Shown one piece after another: positions 3,413-14,633 of a DNA stretch of 33,782 nucleotides. Numbering within the stretch: the stretch's first letter is position 1; every line of letters begins with the position of its first letter. The stretch comes from Halanaerobium saccharolyticum. GTDB lineage: Bacteria > Bacillota > Halanaerobiia > Halanaerobiales > Halanaerobiaceae. The stretch spans positions 1-33,782 of the forward strand of contig NZ_QAXS01000034.1 in the NCBI RefSeq assembly GCF_003053565.1. The letters are read 5' to 3'. A model generated the notes under the pieces. That model worked only from the letters and a program-made list of their open reading frames with translations, was not told the origin of the DNA and did not search any database. The position numbers were made by a program, and so were the translations under genes.

Positions 3413-4300
3413 TTACTGTTTTAATGCTTCTTCTAATTCTTTTAAATCTTTAATCTTAGAAATTCTCCCACTTAACTCTTCTATTTTACTTATTTCTGCC
3501 TGGTCAATTAATTCCATTATTTTATCATTAGACCCTTCAAAATTACCCTTGATAAATTTTTTAAAAAGTTCTCTTTCTCCCTGCTTTTTTCCCTCTTTAA
3601 TTCCTTCTTTTTTACCCTGCTCTTCTACATATTTAAAGAATTTTACCATTTTGTAATCCCTCCAGATTTCTGACATATCTTTGTCACTTAAAAATTTATC
3701 ACTTAAAACGACAGTCAAAGCAACAAGATTGTTTTTTGAATTTTGCTCTATTTCCAGCTTTTCTTCCAATTTAATAGTTTCTTTGACTCGATCAACTATT
3801 TTCTGATCACTATTCATCAAAGGTAAAAAGATTAAGTCAAGATAATTTATCTTTTCCTTATTTTCAATTTTTGCTTTTAATTCTTCCAGTTTCTTTTTGC
3901 CATCTTTTTTAGACATATCTACAACAGTTGAGTTATAACCTAAGCTGCCACAGTTAAATCCTGCTGTAGAATCTGTATAGCCCTTAATACATAAAATTAT
4001 CGTCCGAATTCTGTCTCTATATCTATTATACAACTTTAAGTCATAACTGGCAAAACGAATTAAGTCAGAAACCGAAATTTCTGCTTCTTCCTCCAAGTGA
4101 AGTATTGACCCATCTTCCAACATAAAATTTAAATCCAATAATTCTAAATTAGTTTCAATTTCAGCAAATTCAGTTTCTAGATAGGAGGCAATTCCAGGCA
4201 GCTCCACCTCTAAAAAATCAGCAATATCGTTCTTAAAAAGATTGAAAGAGTCTTTGAAAACAAAGTCATAGTTATGGGCCGTCACATCAAACTGCTGCAT
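3413..4300 (-). CDS. Rpn-family (PD-(D/E)XK) recombination-promoting nuclease-like protein
   Basis: Protein of 295 residues. The N-terminal half has the Rpn/transposase_31-like layout: DFVFKDSFNLFKNDIADFLE near residue 12, LLDLNFMLEDGSILHLEEE at 54-72 and DLIRFASYDLKLYNRY at 79-94. D56 and E70 would be the core acidic residues of the PD-(D/E)XK fold; where Rpn proteins usually have ExQ or ExK this one has E70-E-E72. The C-terminal part carries the low-complexity EEQGKKEGIKEGKKQGERE common in the family. Known Rpn proteins are DNA endonucleases linked to recombination and, in some cases, phage defence; the role here is inferred. It is a single-gene unit with its own promoter and terminator. 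Start ATG 4300 follows GGAGG at good spacing. Confidence 0.8.
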   Translation of the reverse strand: MQQFDVTAHNYDFVFKDSFNLFKNDIADFLEVELPGIASYLETEFAEIETNLELLDLNFMLEDGSILHLEEEAEISVSDLIRFASYDLKLYNRYRDRIRTIILCIKGYTDSTAGFNCGSLGYNSTVVDMSKKDGKKKLEELKAKIENKEKINYLDLIFLPLMNSDQKIVDRVKETIKLEEKLEIEQNSKNNLVALTVVLSDKFLSDKDMSEIWRDYKMVKFFKYVEEQGKKEGIKEGKKQGERELFKKFIKGNFEGSNDKIMELIDQAEISKIEELSGRISKIKDLKELEEALKQ

Positions 4301-4431: not shown

Positions 4432-5043
4432 TCAAATTATTTTCTTTTTCTCATTATTTTGAGATGCTGCATCCTTAAGCTGATCAATTTTCATTGCCAG
4501 TTTGCCCTGTTCAAGGCTTAGACGAGCAGTTTGATCGTGAATCTTATTTACAGTATAATTCAGCTCATCAAATTGATCACTGTGTTTTTTTAATGTTTTA
4601 TTGATATTAAATAATTTAATATCCTGTTCTGCAAGCACATTATCCAGCTTATCAAAGCGTTTGTCATGGTCATTTAGTTTCATTTCAATATTATTAAATC
4701 GTTTGTCAATTTGATCAAAACGTTTATCGTGATTATCAAGTCTTTTATCTATCTGATCAAAGCGCTTATCGTGATCATCAAGTCTTTTATCTATCTGATC
4801 AAAGCGTTTATCATGCTCATCAAGTCTTTTGTCTATCTGATCAAAGCGCTTGTCATGTTCATCAAGCCTTATGTCAATCTGGTCAAAGCGCTTATCATGA
4901 TCAGCAAGCTTTTTGTCAATTTTGTCAAAACGCTTATCGATTTGAGAAAATTTGCTATCCAATCTCTTATCAAGCTGGTCAAAACGATTAACAAACTCGT
5001 CAAATCGACTGACAAGTGTCTCTAAAATTTTAGCTTCTGGCAT
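4432..5043 (-). CDS. Coiled-coil protein of 14-residue repeats (paralogue of 2228-2836)
   Basis: Protein of 203 residues. Residues 20-135 are tandem 14-residue units close to DHDKRFDQIDKRLD, so two heptads per unit and a long charged coiled coil. The end (HDQTARLSLEQGKLAMKIDQLK) is related to the end of the 2228 gene. GTG at 5052 is in frame, but ATG at 5043 sits 6 nt after AGGTG and gives MPEAKILETLV, matching the paralogue's start, so it is preferred. No signal peptide, no membrane helix, no cysteine. Function unknown; a scaffold or tether role is only a guess from shape. The units here are more alike than those in the paralogue, so the array may have expanded more recently. Confidence 0.8.
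   Translation of the reverse strand: MPEAKILETLVSRFDEFVNRFDQLDKRLDSKFSQIDKRFDKIDKKLADHDKRFDQIDIRLDEHDKRFDQIDKRLDEHDKRFDQIDKRLDDHDKRFDQIDKRLDNHDKRFDQIDKRFNNIEMKLNDHDKRFDKLDNVLAEQDIKLFNINKTLKKHSDQFDELNYTVNKIHDQTARLSLEQGKLAMKIDQLKDAASQNNEKKKII
4648..4986 (-). repeat. 42-nt tandem repeats coding for heptad pairs
   Basis: Around seven units of 42 nt encode DHDKRFDQIDKRLD-like repeats; the four central units are nearly identical at the protein level. The same 42-nt period is found at 2392-2748 with a different consensus. Confidence 0.8.
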
Positions 5044-5083
5044 TTGATTCACCTGCCCTTCTTCCTATTCTCCAGATATTTAT

Positions 5084-6594: not shown

Positions 6595-7323
6595 TTATAA
6601 ATGTTTAATTCTATCTCCATATTTTTTGGCTAATTTCTTGTTTTCAGCATCTGCACCATCGATATTTCCGCTCCTATAAACCGGAAGCTCCATTCCTTTT
6701 TCCTTCATCAGAGCAATTGCCTCCGAGATGATGCTGTTCATAATATAGGAAGCGGCAATGGTTGAACCCGGAACTGCTTTTGTAACCTCAAAATCCACTA
6801 CTGCATCACCATAGGGAGTATGGTTATCAAGCACATAATCGGCAACTTCAAATAGCCGCTTACCACTTTTGTGCCGGGAATCATTTGCCTTAGAATATTC
6901 CAGTGAAGTAAGGGCCACCACTTCCAGCCCCTCCTCTTTAGCTTTAAAGGCTGCATCAATCGGTACCGCATTCCGGCCGGAGTTGGAGACTACAATCATT
7001 AAATCCTTTGGCTGCAGGTCATAGTCATCCAGAATTACCTCACCTAAGCCTGACAGGCGCTCCATTTTAGTGCTTTTAATTGCACCACCATCGAGCATTA
7101 CTCCAGGATCAAAAATTGGACTCATCACTGCCAGTCCACCTGCTCTGTAAAACACTTCTTCTGACAGCATATGCGAATGACCGGAGCCAAAAACATGAAT
7201 TAGACCATCGTTTTCAACAGTTTCTACAAATTTTTGCGCGATCTTTTTTATATTAGCCTTTTCTTCTTCCTTTATTTCATCCAAAATTTCATCAATTTTT
7301 TCAGTATATCTTGCAAAAGACAT
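6595..7323 (-). CDS. SIS-domain protein, UPF0309-like sugar-phosphate isomerase or binding protein
   Basis: Protein of 242 residues. GSGHSHMLSEEVFYRAGG near residue 46 and VVSNSGRNAVPIDAAF near 131 are the two phosphosugar-binding parts of the SIS fold; length and layout fit the UPF0309 group. SIS proteins isomerise or sense sugar phosphates, so it probably acts in the cytoplasm on the phosphorylated product of the PTS encoded upstream. The start ATG overlaps the stop of the creatininase-family gene (TGATG) and follows GGAGG, which indicates translational coupling. It is the last gene of the operon, directly before the terminator at 6521-6543. The exact substrate cannot be read from the sequence. 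Confidence 0.85.
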   Translation of the reverse strand: MSFARYTEKIDEILDEIKEEEKANIKKIAQKFVETVENDGLIHVFGSGHSHMLSEEVFYRAGGLAVMSPIFDPGVMLDGGAIKSTKMERLSGLGEVILDDYDLQPKDLMIVVSNSGRNAVPIDAAFKAKEEGLEVVALTSLEYSKANDSRHKSGKRLFEVADYVLDNHTPYGDAVVDFEVTKAVPGSTIAASYIMNSIISEAIALMKEKGMELPVYRSGNIDGADAENKKLAKKYGDRIKHL

Positions 7324-8051
7324 CAGTCAACCTCCTTTTTAAAATTATTAACTATTTCTATGATTTTAGCCGTTATACCGGCAATTAACTGCTCCCCTTT
7401 ATCAGCTGCTGCCGGGCTTGGATCACCAAGTACAGCCTTAGCGGTAATCTGATCCCAGGGCACAGAATAACTGCCAAAATAGTCGGGGATTTCCGGTCTA
7501 TCAGCTTCTGCTTTGGACATATCCACCAGCTCACTGTTTATTTTAAGCATCATTGAAGTTTCAATCTCTTCGGCATGAAGATAGCTGGGATGGACTCTTT
7601 GTGTTTCAATATATTTCTGCTCCAGCTCTTTTAAGCCGGGATGAGTAAAACGAAGGAGCTTAAGATTATATTTTTCCTGAACTGCTCTTTCCGCCTTTTT
7701 GAGAGCAGTCTTATTGCCAAAATGTCCATTTATTATAATCAGTAATTTTACCTCATGTCGCTCCAAACTCTTAGCTATATCCTCTATTATCGAAATAATT
7801 GTTTGATCTTCTAATGAAATTGAGCCGGGAAAATTTCTTAAAGACCAGACCTGGCCAAAGGGAAGTAGAGGTAGAATTGGAGCATCCAGTCTTTCTGCCA
7901 CTCTCCCGGCAATTTCTTCACTAATATAATTATCTGTTCCCAGAGGCAGATGATAACCATGAGCCTCAACCGCACCGATGGGAAGAATTACAATTTTGTT
8001 TTTTAACTTTTCTTCAGCCTGCTGCCAGTTCATTTCTGCTAATTTTTCCAT
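7323..8051 (-). CDS. Creatininase-family amidohydrolase
   Basis: Protein of 242 residues. Metal-binding motifs of the creatininase family are present: GAVEAHGYHLPLGTDNYISE near residues 26-45 (Glu, His and Asp ligands), NGHFGNKTAL near 109, and HAEEIETSMM near 158. Family members open cyclic amides or act on related compounds (creatinine, the riboflavin/F420 intermediate handled by ArfB, mycofactocin MftE, a keto-inositol in inositol breakdown), so substrate cannot be assigned. The context, downstream of PTS genes and a phosphotriesterase-like gene, suggests a sugar-derived substrate. The frame extends to 8060, but ATG at 8051 is preceded by GAGGTG with 6 nt spacing and is preferred. It is separated from the IIC gene by a long hairpin. 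Confidence 0.85.
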   Translation of the reverse strand: MEKLAEMNWQQAEEKLKNKIVILPIGAVEAHGYHLPLGTDNYISEEIAGRVAERLDAPILPLLPFGQVWSLRNFPGSISLEDQTIISIIEDIAKSLERHEVKLLIIINGHFGNKTALKKAERAVQEKYNLKLLRFTHPGLKELEQKYIETQRVHPSYLHAEEIETSMMLKINSELVDMSKAEADRPEIPDYFGSYSVPWDQITAKAVLGDPSPAAADKGEQLIAGITAKIIEIVNNFKKEVD

Positions 8052-8139
8052 AAAATTCACCTCTTTTTGAGCTCAGCTTTAATCAGCAAAGACTGGCATC
8101 TGCTAAGCTACAAATCACTCCAGTAATTTATAATAGAAA

Positions 8140-8223: not shown

Positions 8224-9516
8224 TTAAGCAAATAAGCTCATAATCCACTTCAAGATAGAACCAAAGACAAACATATCCGTGTCTCCACCCCAGAGTATAA
8301 ACTCAGTAACTGTATCCGGGATAATATATTTGATAAATATTGCCTGACCAAAGGTAATAATTGCACCGACAACAACACCGGCAATAATTGCACCTTTAAC
8401 TCCACCAGTCTCATTACCAAAGACTCCAGCACCGGCGGCGTGAAAGAAGACACCAATCATTGGAGGAACAAAAACATAGAATCCGGTTGCACCCATTATT
8501 ACCATGATTATTACCATAGTAACAAAGGAAGCTGCAAAACCAATGATAGTAGCGGCAGGAGCATAAGCATAAGTAACTGGTACATCAAGAGCCGGCTTAG
8601 AATTAGGAACTAATTTCTGAGAAATACCTCTAAAGGCAGGTACAATTTCTCCAATTAATAACTTAACTCCATGAAGCACAACTGCAATACCGGCACCAAA
8701 ACGGAAACCTTTTAAAATTCCAAAGACAATGTGGTTTTTATTTCCAGAATATTCTCCTACAAATTCAGGTCCTGCTAAAAGGGCACCTAAACCATACATT
8801 AGCCCCATAACAAGAACAATAACAACATTGCTGTCTTTTAGGAAGCCAAAGCCTTCAGGCATTTTTAGATCTTCGGTATCATTTTCTTTATTACCAAAAT
8901 GTTTACCTAAAATAGCTCCCAGCCAGGCACCGGTTGAGAAGGTGTGGCCGACGGCAAAATTATCTTTGCCCGTAAAGCTTTTAACGTATTTCTGTAAGTA
9001 AGCTGGCTGCAGGGTCCAGTAAGCTCCAAGTAAAACTGCTCCACTGATAATCATCCACATCTGGGAGACTCCCTGGCCAAAGACCTGAACAACTATTCCG
9101 GCATAAACAAAACTAACCCAGAACATCATGTGTCCTGTTAGATAAATATATTTAAACTTAGTAATTCTGGCTAATAAAACATTAACTAAAAATCCAAAGG
9201 TCATAATCAGAGTAACGGCTCCACCATATTCACCTAAAAAACTATTGGTTGACATTCCACCAACTTCTGCACTTCCGGTCATTCCAAATACTTCCTGCCA
9301 GATAGGACCAAAAGCACCTAAGGAATTACCAATTAAAGTTGAACCACCCTGAATAATCATAAAACCAAGAATAGTTTTTACAGTTCCAGTAACAACATCA
9401 CTGGCGCTTTTTTTCTGTAATAATAGTCCGGTAAGGGCAATTAAACCAATTAAACTTGCTGGTTCTCTAAAGACATTATTAGCAATCCATCTTGCCACAG
9501 CAATTAAGCCATCCAT
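8224..9516 (-). CDS. PTS ascorbate-type (UlaA/SgaT-like) EIIC permease
   Basis: Protein of 430 residues with about ten hydrophobic segments, fitting the EIIC-SgaT (UlaA) family in length and composition. Recognisable stretches include FMIIQGGSTLIGNSLGAF near residue 52, the loop with GNKENDTEDLKMPEGFGFLK near 208, and GAGVFGNETGGVKGAIIAG near 360. Together with IIA and IIB it would import and phosphorylate a sugar or sugar-acid-like compound across the inner membrane. Ascorbate itself is not implied, since no ula catabolic genes (UlaD, UlaE or UlaF type, or the lactonase UlaG) are nearby. ATG start follows GGGGGAA at normal spacing and lies only 4 nt after the IIB stop. Confidence 0.9.
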   Translation of the reverse strand: MDGLIAVARWIANNVFREPASLIGLIALTGLLLQKKSASDVVTGTVKTILGFMIIQGGSTLIGNSLGAFGPIWQEVFGMTGSAEVGGMSTNSFLGEYGGAVTLIMTFGFLVNVLLARITKFKYIYLTGHMMFWVSFVYAGIVVQVFGQGVSQMWMIISGAVLLGAYWTLQPAYLQKYVKSFTGKDNFAVGHTFSTGAWLGAILGKHFGNKENDTEDLKMPEGFGFLKDSNVVIVLVMGLMYGLGALLAGPEFVGEYSGNKNHIVFGILKGFRFGAGIAVVLHGVKLLIGEIVPAFRGISQKLVPNSKPALDVPVTYAYAPAATIIGFAASFVTMVIIMVIMGATGFYVFVPPMIGVFFHAAGAGVFGNETGGVKGAIIAGVVVGAIITFGQAIFIKYIIPDTVTEFILWGGDTDMFVFGSILKWIMSLFA

Positions 9517-9520
9517 TATA

Positions 9521-9799
9521 TTATTCCCCCTTTTCTTCTAAAAAGTCCTGGATTTTAGATTTTATTTCTTCATTATCCATAAAATCAGAAACGGTGATTA
9601 CAGGAACTTCAAAACCTTCCAGCGCATCCTCATGGAATTCTCCTGCTAGAATAAGGTCGGCACCTGAGTTTTTAGCAGTACTTATATTACTGTTATCTAC
9701 ATCAGCATCAAGACCGATTTCATCTATAACATCCTGGACATTCATCTTTAAAATAAGACTACTGCCCTGACCTGCTCCGCATACTGTTAGAATCTTCAT
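9521..9799 (-). CDS. PTS EIIB subunit, ascorbate/lactose-like type
   Basis: Protein of 92 residues. The start KILTVCGAGQGSS contains the phosphorylated cysteine (C7) in the usual P-loop-like CGxGxGSS motif. The frame runs back to 9859, but ATG at 9799 has GGAGGTGAG in front of it and gives the normal family length, so it is chosen. It accepts phosphate from the IIA histidine and passes it to the substrate during transport by IIC. The gene overlaps the end of the IIA gene by 41 nt. Confidence 0.9.
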   Translation of the reverse strand: MKILTVCGAGQGSSLILKMNVQDVIDEIGLDADVDNSNISTAKNSGADLILAGEFHEDALEGFEVPVITVSDFMDNEEIKSKIQDFLEEKGE

Positions 9800-10259
9800 T
9801 ACTCTCACCTCCTTCATCATAGCTTTTAAAATAAGCAAGCAATTCTTTTTTAGAATCAACCTCTTTGATATAATTTACATTCTTTTTATCCTTTAAAAAT
9901 TCTGCCAGCTCGCTTAACATCTGAGTATGGGAGCTGTCATCGGCAGCACAGAAGCTGATTACTACTTTAACCGGATCATTTTTGGAATGGCCAAAGTTCA
10001 CCGGTTCTTTTAGGGTTAAAAGACTTAAGCCATTTTCTTTGGCACCTTTTTCCGGACGGGCATGAGGCAGCGCAAGGCCCGGAGTAATTACAATATAGGC
10101 ACCTTTATCTTTTACCATCTCTATCATAGCATCTATATACTCAGCTTCTATTAAATCATTGGCTTCTAAAATACTGCCCGATTTTTTTATTGCCTCTTTC
10201 CAGTCTGCAACTTCAGCACCTAAAATGATATTATCTTTAGTTAAATATTCTGAGATCAT
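9759..10259 (-). CDS. PTS EIIA subunit (fructose/mannitol, Ntr-like fold)
   Basis: Protein of 166 residues. YIVITPGLALPHARPEKGA holds the phosphorylated His67 (H in LPHARP), typical of the PTS_EIIA type 2 fold. It is closely related to the C-terminal IIA domain of the operon's own regulator (GVALVHASPEEGV), so the two may have arisen by duplication. The frame starts with TTG at 10262, but the ATG at 10259 lies at good spacing after GGGGAGGG and overlaps the preceding stop as TGATG. The last 14 residues read into the IIB gene; the tail (SNEDSNSMRSRSGQ) looks non-conserved, so the overlap may be a late extension. Confidence 0.9.
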   Translation of the reverse strand: MISEYLTKDNIILGAEVADWKEAIKKSGSILEANDLIEAEYIDAMIEMVKDKGAYIVITPGLALPHARPEKGAKENGLSLLTLKEPVNFGHSKNDPVKVVISFCAADDSSHTQMLSELAEFLKDKKNVNYIKEVDSKKELLAYFKSYDEGGESNEDSNSMRSRSGQ

Positions 10260-11086
10260 CAATTACCCTCCCCACTGCGGAATGGTAAAAATCTTTTTGG
10301 ATTATCAATAAAGATTGTATCTATCTGCTCCTGACTAAATCCTTCTCTTTTTAGTCTTGGAATAAATTTATTTTGAATATACTCCCAGCCGGGTCCACCT
10401 CCATAGGATTTTAGATATGATTTTCTTCCCATATCATTGGAGATAAAGAGCTGATTTAGAAATCCATCATCAACTAATTTTTTGAGCATATCTATTCTCT
10501 TCTGATCTGCATAGTATTTTATTTTAGAAGGACCGTCATACATGATATTGGCTCCTCTTTCTAAGGCCCGCCTGTGATAACCATAATCTAAGTTTCTATC
10601 CATATGGATTAAAACAACTCGGGAGAGATCGACTCCCTCACGCTCAAAGATATCCAGCTGCTCTAATCCCATTGTTCCCATTTCGGTGTGGGTCTGGACT
10701 GGAGCACCGGTTACCAGCTGAGCCTGGGCGGCTGCCACAAAGGTTTTTTCCTCGGACTTCGTGATATTATTATAATCACTGCCGGCCTTTAAAATTCCGG
10801 CCTTCATCTCAGTGCCTTCAATACCTTCGGTTGCCTCCCTTATCAGAAGTTCGGTCAGCTCATCGACAGAATAATTGTGAACCCAGTCTTCAAAAAAGAT
10901 ACCTCTGTTAAAACCTGAGGTTGCTAAAATATTAATGTCAGTTCTCTCTGCAATTTTAGCCATCTGATCAATATTGCGGCCGTAATCTATGGTAGTTCCA
11001 TCTACAAAGGTATTAACTTCTGTTTTTTCCAGTCTTCTCAGCTCTTCTACCTCAATTTCTCCTGTTAAAGTATTAATTTTTTTCAT
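10259..11086 (-). CDS. Phosphotriesterase-like (Php/PTE family) protein lacking the HxH motif
   Basis: Protein of 275 residues. Most of the TIM barrel is there: the lysine that is normally carboxylated in GTEMKAGILK (K95), metal His in VQTHTEMG (H133) and VLIHMDRN (H161), and the catalytic Asp in FISNDMGRKSYL (D218). It resembles E. coli Php, and some PTE relatives next to PTS genes act on sugar-lactone phosphates. Unusually, the first strand with the HxH metal pair (normally HEHL near residue 20-25) is missing: GEIEVEELRRLEKTEVNTFV runs straight from the N-terminal strand to the next helix. About 40 residues seem lost in frame, perhaps between two EEL-coding repeats. The binuclear centre would then be incomplete. 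Start ATG follows AAAGGAGG and overlaps the regulator stop by 14 nt. Confidence 0.85.
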   Translation of the reverse strand: MKKINTLTGEIEVEELRRLEKTEVNTFVDGTTIDYGRNIDQMAKIAERTDINILATSGFNRGIFFEDWVHNYSVDELTELLIREATEGIEGTEMKAGILKAGSDYNNITKSEEKTFVAAAQAQLVTGAPVQTHTEMGTMGLEQLDIFEREGVDLSRVVLIHMDRNLDYGYHRRALERGANIMYDGPSKIKYYADQKRIDMLKKLVDDGFLNQLFISNDMGRKSYLKSYGGGPGWEYIQNKFIPRLKREGFSQEQIDTIFIDNPKRFLPFRSGEGN

Positions 11087-13298
11087 TTTGATCCTCCTTT
11101 TGGGTTAGCAGTTCTATAATTTTTTGCTTATTATTGAGTGAAATTATTTTATCCATAAATTCTTTATTGTATAGCTTATTAATCAGACTGCTTAAGGCCT
11201 TAATGTCCTTATTTTTGTCGGGAGAAGCAAAGGCAATTACTATCTGCACCGGATCATTTTCGGGATGATTAAATTCAACCGCTTCTCTGAGAGTTATTAA
11301 ACTCAGACCAAAATTATTTACTCCTTCTTCCGGACTGGCATGGACTAAGGCAACTCCCGGAATGATCACCACATAAGGACCTCGCTTTTCAATGTTTTTT
11401 ATCATATTTTCTATATAAATTTCATCAATATAATTCTGCTTGAGCAGCAGTTGACCACTTTTTTCTACAGCCTGTTTCCAGTCTGCTGCCTCAACTTCTG
11501 TCTTCAGCAGAGATGGCTTTAAAATACTTTCTAAATCAGAGCTTTCGTCTATTTCTTTTTCCTCATCTTCTTTTGGCTTTAGATGTTTTTTGAACAGTTT
11601 TTCTAACTTATTTCTAAACTCTTTTTTATCTTTTAACTGAAAGTTATCAGAAGCTGATTCTACCAGCTCTGCTGCCATTTCTTTTAAATTAGCAGGCTTT
11701 TTATTTTGACTGCTGCTGTCCTTAGCTGTGGAATTGTTTTGATAAATTTTTTGATTATAAAGTTCTATTATTAGCTCTTCTATATTTTCTATATCCTCTT
11801 CTTTAAGCAGAGGATTAACCTGAACATTTTTTAATTCAATCTCCGGCAGCTCAATGGTCGAAATTATAAAGTCTATTTCGTTCAGCTTAAAATCATTGTA
11901 TTCTATATCATGATAGGAATAGCTGTCTACGATCTCCAGATTGGAAAATTCATTTTTTATTCTCTCTGCCAGAATCTGAGTGGTTCCAATCCCGGTACTG
12001 CAGACTAAGGCTGCTTTTAGCTTCTGGGCAGCAGCGGGTTTGATATTTTTCCTTTCGACTGCTGCTCCAATGTGCATGGCAATAAAGCCAATTTCTTCTT
12101 CACTAATTTCTCCCTGGATTTCAGTCTGTACCACTCCGGCTGCAATTTTAGAAGCACGATAAATTTCAGGATACTTATCTTTTATATCATTTACCAGCTG
12201 GTTTTCTATATTCAAATTGTATTTAATTCTATTTAAGGTCGGCTTTAGATGCAGGGCCAGACCGTAAATCAAATCCTGGTCATTGGTCAGGTTTAAGTTT
12301 AAAATTCTGCCGGCTATTTCTACCAGCTGATAGGTTAAGTTTAATAACCTGTCGTCAAATAACTTATTATTATCAAAGTCAACCTCACCTTTTCTTCTAA
12401 ACTTGGCTCCCAGCAGGTGGAGGGTAATATAGCCGATTTCTGATTCGGGGATTTCCAGTTCAAATTTATCCTCCAGCTGTGCTACTATTTTCCCTGCAAT
12501 TTCAAATTCTTTTTTCTTTTTTAAAAGCAGAAGCTGACGGGAGTTCATATTAATATCTTTATTCTTTAAAATCCGCTGGACTGCAATTACTATATGCAGA
12601 ACCAGGGCCGAAAAGGCAGCATCTGTAAAAGAAAAATCCAGTTTCTTTTCTATGCGGCGGATAATATCTTTAATAGTTTTAACCTGAGAGCTGTTGATTA
12701 AGTTTAAAAGTTCCTGATAGGAACTAATAAAAGAAGATATATTATTCTTTTTCTTAAATAAGTTTAAAATACTACTAGTATCTTCTCTAGAACTGCTTTC
12801 TTCCAAAAAATCAAAGACTGCTCTGCGCCAGTTATCCTCATAGCCTCGGATTTCAATACCATAGTTTGGTTTTCTCAACAGTTCTAAATTTCTATGCTGC
12901 AGCCAATTTTCTACCTTATTTAAGTCATTAATAATTGTTCCTTCGCTGACATCAAGATTTATTTCAAATTCTTTGATTATTACCGGCTCGTCTCTTTCCA
13001 AAAGTTCTTTTAAAATAAGCTGCTGTCTTTCTTCAGGAGTATAGGCTCTTTTATAATCAAGTTCCATATCTAGAATATTTGTTAATTTATCCTCAGCAGA
13101 ATCTTTTAAATAAATTCCCACTCCCTGTTTGCGCTGCAGTTTAAGTCCATTTTCATTCAGCCAGCTTTCTATTTTATCTAAATCATAACGAATGGTTCGC
13201 GGACTAACCTCTAACTGCCGGGCAAGTTCTTTAATTACCAAAGGACTGTCACTTTTTATTAATTTTTTTAGAATTTCATTCTCTCTATTTTTTGGCAT
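11073..13298 (-). CDS. PRD-containing PTS operon activator (MtlR/LicR-like)
   Basis: Protein of 741 residues with the full layout of this class: HTH at about 5-65 (VIKELARQLEVSPRTIRYDL), second HTH-like segment at 92-155, PRD1 with H235 and H294, PRD2 with H350 and H409, an EIIB-like domain with C433 in LVCSTGIGTTQ, a charged linker, and an EIIA domain with H653 in GVALVHASPEEG. Such regulators activate their operon, with activity set by phosphorylation of PRD histidines by HPr and the cognate IIB, so it should respond to transport through the PTS encoded downstream. It is the first gene of the operon, has a good sigma-A promoter, and starts at ATG 13298 after AAGGAG. Confidence 0.9.
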   Translation of the reverse strand: MPKNRENEILKKLIKSDSPLVIKELARQLEVSPRTIRYDLDKIESWLNENGLKLQRKQGVGIYLKDSAEDKLTNILDMELDYKRAYTPEERQQLILKELLERDEPVIIKEFEINLDVSEGTIINDLNKVENWLQHRNLELLRKPNYGIEIRGYEDNWRRAVFDFLEESSSREDTSSILNLFKKKNNISSFISSYQELLNLINSSQVKTIKDIIRRIEKKLDFSFTDAAFSALVLHIVIAVQRILKNKDINMNSRQLLLLKKKKEFEIAGKIVAQLEDKFELEIPESEIGYITLHLLGAKFRRKGEVDFDNNKLFDDRLLNLTYQLVEIAGRILNLNLTNDQDLIYGLALHLKPTLNRIKYNLNIENQLVNDIKDKYPEIYRASKIAAGVVQTEIQGEISEEEIGFIAMHIGAAVERKNIKPAAAQKLKAALVCSTGIGTTQILAERIKNEFSNLEIVDSYSYHDIEYNDFKLNEIDFIISTIELPEIELKNVQVNPLLKEEDIENIEELIIELYNQKIYQNNSTAKDSSSQNKKPANLKEMAAELVESASDNFQLKDKKEFRNKLEKLFKKHLKPKEDEEKEIDESSDLESILKPSLLKTEVEAADWKQAVEKSGQLLLKQNYIDEIYIENMIKNIEKRGPYVVIIPGVALVHASPEEGVNNFGLSLITLREAVEFNHPENDPVQIVIAFASPDKNKDIKALSSLINKLYNKEFMDKIISLNNKQKIIELLTQKEDQNEKN

Positions 13299-13506: not shown

Positions 13507-14633
13507 TTAATTCATGATCTCACTTTCACCTAATTTATAATCCACTATTTCCAGCTTGTTCTTGATATCAAGTCCATATCTGCAGGCTTTAAATTCAGCC
13601 GCTTTATCCAGCAGGTCAGCTGCTTTTAATTCCAGCTTCTGATAGCGAACTTCTGCCAGTTCTCTGTCACCAAACCAGAAGCGGAGGCGGTCCCGCAGAG
13701 CATATTCAGCAGGGTTTCGGGGCCTGCCGTCATACATCTGACGGTCAAAATAACCTTCCATTCTAAATACAGCTTTCAGGTCTTCCCCAAATTCTTTAGA
13801 AACACTGCACTGATCACACTGGCGGCAGATATAATCTCCCAACTCTTCAGCATTGGCAAATAGTTCTTCTTTTTCAGCCTCAGTCAGCGGCTCAAACTCC
13901 TCTGCCAGTTTTAAGTCCATCTCCAGCATCTCCTGGTTATTCATCCCTGTTACTACAGCATCAACCGGCAGTGAAAAAACATAGCGAAAGGCATCTTCTA
14001 CATTCTGCCACAGAAATCCGTCAGCAAGGGGCTTCATGCAGAGTGTTCCTATCTCCTTTTCTTTAACCAGCGGCAGCAGCTGATCCTCTAATTTAGGGAA
14101 GTTGAATTTGTCAAAATAATTGAAGTGAGTCATCATCACCTCAAATTCGCCAGTTTTTAAGGCTTTAATTAAAACATCAGGCTGGCCGTGAGCTGTAATC
14201 CCAATATGTTAATATGTTTAACTTTCCCCATTTCTTTTGCTTTTTTGGCAGCTTCCAGTGAGCCGCCTGGCTTTAAAATCGCCTCCAAATCTGCCTCATC
14301 ACCAACACCATGCATAAAAATTATGTCAAGGTGGTCTGTCTGCAGATTTTTAAGACTGCGGTCTATTTCTGCCATTGCGCCCTCAGCATCTCTGACTCCA
14401 GTTTTACTGGCCAGAACAAGCTCATCCCGCCTGTTTTTAACTATTTCCCCGATCTTTTTTTCTGACTCACCATCACCATAAGAAGCTGCTATTTCCAGAT
14501 AATTTCCACCTCGATCTAAATAAGTGGTCAATAAATCTGCAGCCCTGTCAGCCGGTATTTCTATTAGGTGAAAGCCGCCAAAACCAAGCAGACTAACTTC
14601 CAGGCCGGTTTTTCCAAGTTTTCTTTTTTCCAT
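13507..14633 (-). pseudogene. Aldo/keto reductase with C-terminal Fe-S-like region, frameshifted
   Basis: Two frames together make one aldo/keto reductase. Frame 1 (14633 to 14169) has RKLGKTGLEVSLLGFGGFHL, the EIAASYGDGES motif with the active-site Tyr, and LDIIFMHGVGDE. Frame 2 resumes as GITAHGQPDVLIKALKTGEF and runs to 13507 with CRQCDQC near its middle, as in reductases carrying a ferredoxin-like tail, though the usual fourth Cys of one cluster is not obvious. The break is an exact tandem duplication of 8 nt at 14203-14218; removing one copy restores KVKHIGITAHGQPD and a single 372-residue protein. Codon use and frame 2 are otherwise intact, so the lesion is probably recent, a sequencing error or a reversible switch. 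Start ATG follows AGGAGG. Confidence 0.85.
14203..14218 (-). repeat. 8-bp tandem duplication breaking the aldo/keto reductase
   Basis: On minus, AACATATT is present twice in a row (14211-14218 and 14203-14210). Eight extra bases shift the frame; deleting one copy restores a conserved aldo/keto reductase sequence across the junction. Confidence 0.9.

Follow-up and report, generated by a model that had tools for sequence, protein, structure and literature searches.

An in-frame 36-codon deletion removes the HxH motif from a phosphotriesterase-family gene in a Halanaerobium PTS operon

Members of the phosphotriesterase (PTE) family hold two metals by means of four histidines, one aspartate and a carboxylated lysine (PMC4323659). 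Among its described members, Ms0025 and Mag6390 of Mycoplasma, which are of the NF045706 type, are lactonases for sugar-lactone phosphates. Here we describe a PTE-family gene within a 33,782-nucleotide stretch of Halanaerobium DNA (the window) in which the N-terminal HxH has been lost, so that two of the six ligands of the family scheme are gone.

A PTE-family gene without its HxH pair

The gene is open from an ATG through 275 codons with no internal stop (Table 1), and its product was assigned to the family by the Pfam PTE profile (PF02126) with an E value of 1.3e-69 and 235 bits, where the gathering score is 22.4. The match covers only profile positions 41-297 of 298. A preliminary description of this locus had reported that the N-terminal HxH was missing, and we found no HxH anywhere in the 275-residue translation, the N-terminal barrel strand 1 included. 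The protein retains the bridging Lys/Glu, two further histidines and the catalytic aspartate that mark family members but lacks the HxH of barrel strand 1, which supplies the alpha-metal ligands. A second PTE gene was not found in the window's genome.

His133, His161 and Asp218 were invariant in all 40 of the aligned sequences. The preliminary description had listed these three residues as present together with Lys95; the three stand, but the metal lysine has to be moved. Lys95 is the neighboring lysine of the KAG motif (KAGIL-K100) and is merely common, whereas the column of Lys100 holds K or E in 40/40 sequences, as expected for a bridging carboxylated lysine or glutamate.

The gene order, PRD regulator - PTE - EIIA - EIIB - EIIC - creatininase - SIS, is identical in both H. 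saccharolyticum strains. In the window, the start of the PTE gene overlaps the 3' end of the regulator gene by 14 nt, and its stop overlaps the start of the EIIA gene. Thus, the earlier view of a gene that is otherwise intact and embedded in a coupled operon holds.

Table 1. Positions of the PTE-family gene, its deletion junction and metal-ligand codons, and the neighboring operon genes (window coordinates)
Feature	Position	Strand	Basis
PTE-family (PF02126) gene, in-frame 36-codon deletion, 275-aa product without HxH	10259..11086	-	ORF, profile match, alignment
Deletion junction: sole remaining VEEL-coding stretch GTAGAAGAGCTG, codons 13-16	11039..11050	-	DNA alignment of both arms
Lys100 codon, candidate carboxylated metal-bridging lysine	10787..10789	-	K or E in 40/40
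His133 codon, metal ligand	10688..10690	-	invariant 40/40
His161 codon, metal ligand	10604..10606	-	invariant 40/40
Asp218 codon, metal ligand and catalytic base	10433..10435	-	invariant 40/40
PRD-domain transcriptional regulator, also carrying PTS IIB and IIA domains, immediately upstream of PTE	11073..13298	-	profile search
PTS EIIA (PTS_EIIA_2)	9759..10262	-	profile search
PTS EIIB	9521..9811	-	profile search
PTS EIIC, ascorbate (UlaA/GAT) type	8224..9516	-	profile search
Creatininase-family amidohydrolase	7323..8060	-	profile search
SIS-domain sugar isomerase (NF002805/PRK02947)	6595..7323	-	profile search

A block with the order PTE-EIIA-EIIB-EIIC-creatininase-SIS was also observed in another family of the class (L059:7387-13860), where nagB-like and nagA-like genes come after it; the glucosamine-6-phosphate deaminase and N-acetylglucosamine-6-phosphate deacetylase were assigned by eye from their translations. 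These two genes hint at an amino-sugar-related substrate for the PTS operon. A literature search for a context combining PTE, creatininase, glucosamine-6-phosphate deaminase and PTS genes found none.

In the neighborhood of the PTE gene, an 8-bp insertion near 14210 splits an aldo-keto reductase gene (13507-14633, minus strand) into two frames, and the genome has an intact, 95% identical copy on contig C1 (L068). The comparison of these two copies indicates that the neighborhood carries fresh lesions. Elsewhere in the window, two short-repeat ORFs (2228-2869 and 4432-5052, minus strand) with the motifs FDKIDxRFDEID and HDKRFDQIDKRLD flank a transposase-like ORF (3413-4300), whose family was assigned by eye.

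The deletion and its junction

Alignment with the two closest orthologues, L001 and L002, both from H. saccharolyticum, revealed that exactly 36 codons (108 bp) are missing from the window gene. An in-frame loss had been proposed before, with a size of about 40 residues; the frame was right and the size is now corrected. Strand 1 of the barrel and the HxH motif lie in the missing piece, VE(D/E)LGFVRMHEHLLTDPPDLRVKKDSDYVLDSPRKA; the gap holds LGFVRMHEHLLTDPPDLRVKKD..., in which the strand with its HEH is followed by its loop. The remainder of the window protein is colinear with its relatives and has no inserted substitute segment, and the lost segment was not found elsewhere in the window's genome (G000).

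The junction falls within V13-L16 (GTA GAA GAG CTG). The left arm aligns as far as the GAG of E12 and the right arm begins to align at V13, the 12 bases of the V13-L16 codons being assignable to either arm. Both intact H. saccharolyticum orthologues encode VEDL or VDEL 36 codons upstream of VEEL, and in L002 the two flanking 12-mers, GTTGATGAGCTG and GTGGAAGAGCTG, are identical at 10 of 12 bases, with a spacing of 108 bp. Such similar stretches at this distance fit a slipped-strand or short-repeat deletion, and the suggestion that the remaining EELRRLE could be the scar of recombination between two EEL-coding stretches agrees with them. The repeat match is a post hoc observation, made in the orthologues L001 and L002.

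We consider it likely that this was an ordinary gene for a binuclear PTE-family hydrolase of a PTS sugar operon, which in one lineage recently underwent an exact 108-bp in-frame loss-of-function deletion. Slipped-strand mispairing or short-repeat recombination between the two VE(E/D)L-coding stretches probably produced the deletion, which would have taken away strand 1 of the barrel, including the HxH pair, as well as the first loop of the active site. In the intact enzyme, two divalent metals bound by the HxH, Lys100, His133, His161 and Asp218 (window numbering) would activate water, and the putative substrate, an imported phosphorylated sugar derivative (a lactone or an amide), would be hydrolyzed. 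Without the HxH the alpha-metal site is not expected to form, and the alignment implies that strand 1 of the (beta/alpha)8 barrel is lost. Given these two losses, as judged from sequence, the protein has most likely lost its activity and may be misfolded. Since the deletion disturbs neither the frame nor the overlap with the EIIA gene downstream, the transporter could still be made. A deletion keeps the frame by chance in one case of three, which we count against the reading as a lesion.

It is unlikely that the gap arose in assembly, or through selection of a variant in the culture that was sequenced, with natural members of the species carrying the intact gene. A single genome of the species was sampled, as a draft assembly of 94 contigs, which leaves room for either. 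However, at about 12 bp the junction's imperfect repeat is much shorter than the k-mers usually used in assembly, so a collapse would be unlikely, and the frame runs cleanly across the junction.

Constraint on the remaining gene and the survey of relatives

Outside the gap, the window protein agrees with its relatives at 29 of the 30 columns conserved at 85% or more. The exception is E23, a residue that the window protein shares with its three nearest intact relatives. The branch leading to the window gene has a dN of 0.051 and a dN/dS of ~0.03, by both pairwise and three-branch estimates, in line with the operon neighbors. A codon model with four taxa gave an omega of 0.011 on this branch with no sign of relaxation, and when the last fraction f of the branch was allowed to evolve neutrally, the best fit was f=0, with f=0.01 costing 2.1 log units; both omega and this estimate of recency are rough, given synonymous saturation along the window branch and a distant outgroup whose branch hit its bound, but nothing points to a long period of decay. 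The operon neighbors behaved like the PTE gene in the selection estimates. Separately, we observed that the PRD regulator has a window-branch dN of 0.21, compared to 0.03-0.05 in the adjoining PTS and PTE genes.

The lack of relaxed constraint in the rest of the gene means that the deletion occurred recently or else selection still acts on the remnant. A shortened protein that still worked would likewise be under strong constraint, and this weighs against the reading as a lesion. One could suppose that the protein has been retained for a function independent of the HxH, such as a one-metal role or a non-catalytic one, with phosphosugar sensing within the operon or binding to a PTS partner as examples. 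The gene is open and coupled to its neighbors, its remaining codons are constrained like those of the PTS genes, and all other active-site residues are kept. Nevertheless, a very recent deletion accounts for the conservation equally well, taking one entire strand out of an eight-stranded barrel is a drastic change, and no sister lineage shows a stable HxH-less form, as 39/39 relatives inspected keep the motif. We regard such a retained function as quite unlikely, and we give slightly less credence still to its most specific form, in which the seven-strand remnant still folds and selection keeps it for a role in the PTS operon that is metal-poor or non-catalytic, making it a natural pseudoenzyme that arose in one step. 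Recency is the simpler reading of the constraint than continued use of the remnant.

The survey covered 398 genomes of the phylum and 14 of the family for PF02126, and 59 genomes of the class for the orthologue. The 39 distinct PTE genes inspected, orthologues included, are those whose sequences were extracted, with a few further PF02126 matches lying outside this count. The 36 codons with the HEH are present in the two H. saccharolyticum orthologues, which are 87-89% identical to the window protein where they align; a 74% identical orthologue from another family of the class bears the HxH, and orthologues at ~50% identity in other families also keep it. No close relative sharing the same missing segment was found in the 59 genomes of the class or the 398 of the phylum, and a search of viral contigs for another strain found nothing. 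One candidate for a second HxH-less gene, L044, was rejected as a gene cut by a contig end. Among the genomes sampled, the deletion is restricted to the window's genome. The preliminary description had named two observations that would speak against a lesion, relatives in other genera without the segment and an HxH from another part of the fold; we looked for both and saw neither. A distinct natural clade of HxH-less PTE proteins, or an HxH supplied elsewhere in the fold, is thus highly improbable: orthologues on all sides have the motif, and the protein contains no other HxH and no substitute insert. Retention of the HxH in the 74% orthologue and in 36 further PTE genes argues for a lesion of a single genome rather than a clade.

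Comparison with known relatives

The locus provides a clean example of a metal site removed from a conserved hydrolase by a one-step in-frame deletion. With its Pfam score, automated annotation would still call the gene a functional phosphotriesterase, and metabolic reconstruction of the strain's PTS sugar pathway would then be wrong. Beyond the loss of the metal site and the annotation risk, this is ordinary gene decay.

Structure prediction with AlphaFold2 from a 3-sequence alignment gave a mean pLDDT of 60.8 for the window protein versus 58.3 for the intact orthologue used as a control; with both values this low, the models do not bear on the loss of strand 1 either way. Foldseek and VIA-align retrieved mainly PTE-family structures, over window residues 61-271. 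The window protein scored 147.8 bits and the intact L001 protein 156.5 against NF045706, the phospho-furanose lactonase family, whose cut-off is 630 bits. Because both scores are far below that cut-off, the identity of the substrate is not set by that family.

The best PDB sequence match was the Listeria lactonase Lmo2620 (3pnz; 3.6e-61), with which the window protein has the lysine region and the HMDRNLD motif in common; unlike 3pnz and the NF045706-type lactonases, it has no HxH. In Foldseek, E. coli PHP/YhfV (1bf6, 4lef) ranked first, and by sequence it was among the top two PDB relatives (5.6e-55, covering residues 14-266). PHP carries Glu at the position of Lys100, and its residues 1-37, which include its HxH, have no counterpart in the window protein. 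The closest comparison is with the H. saccharolyticum orthologues themselves (L001:5998-6936 and L002:5857-6783), which share the operon order and have the 36 codons with the HEH that the window gene lacks.
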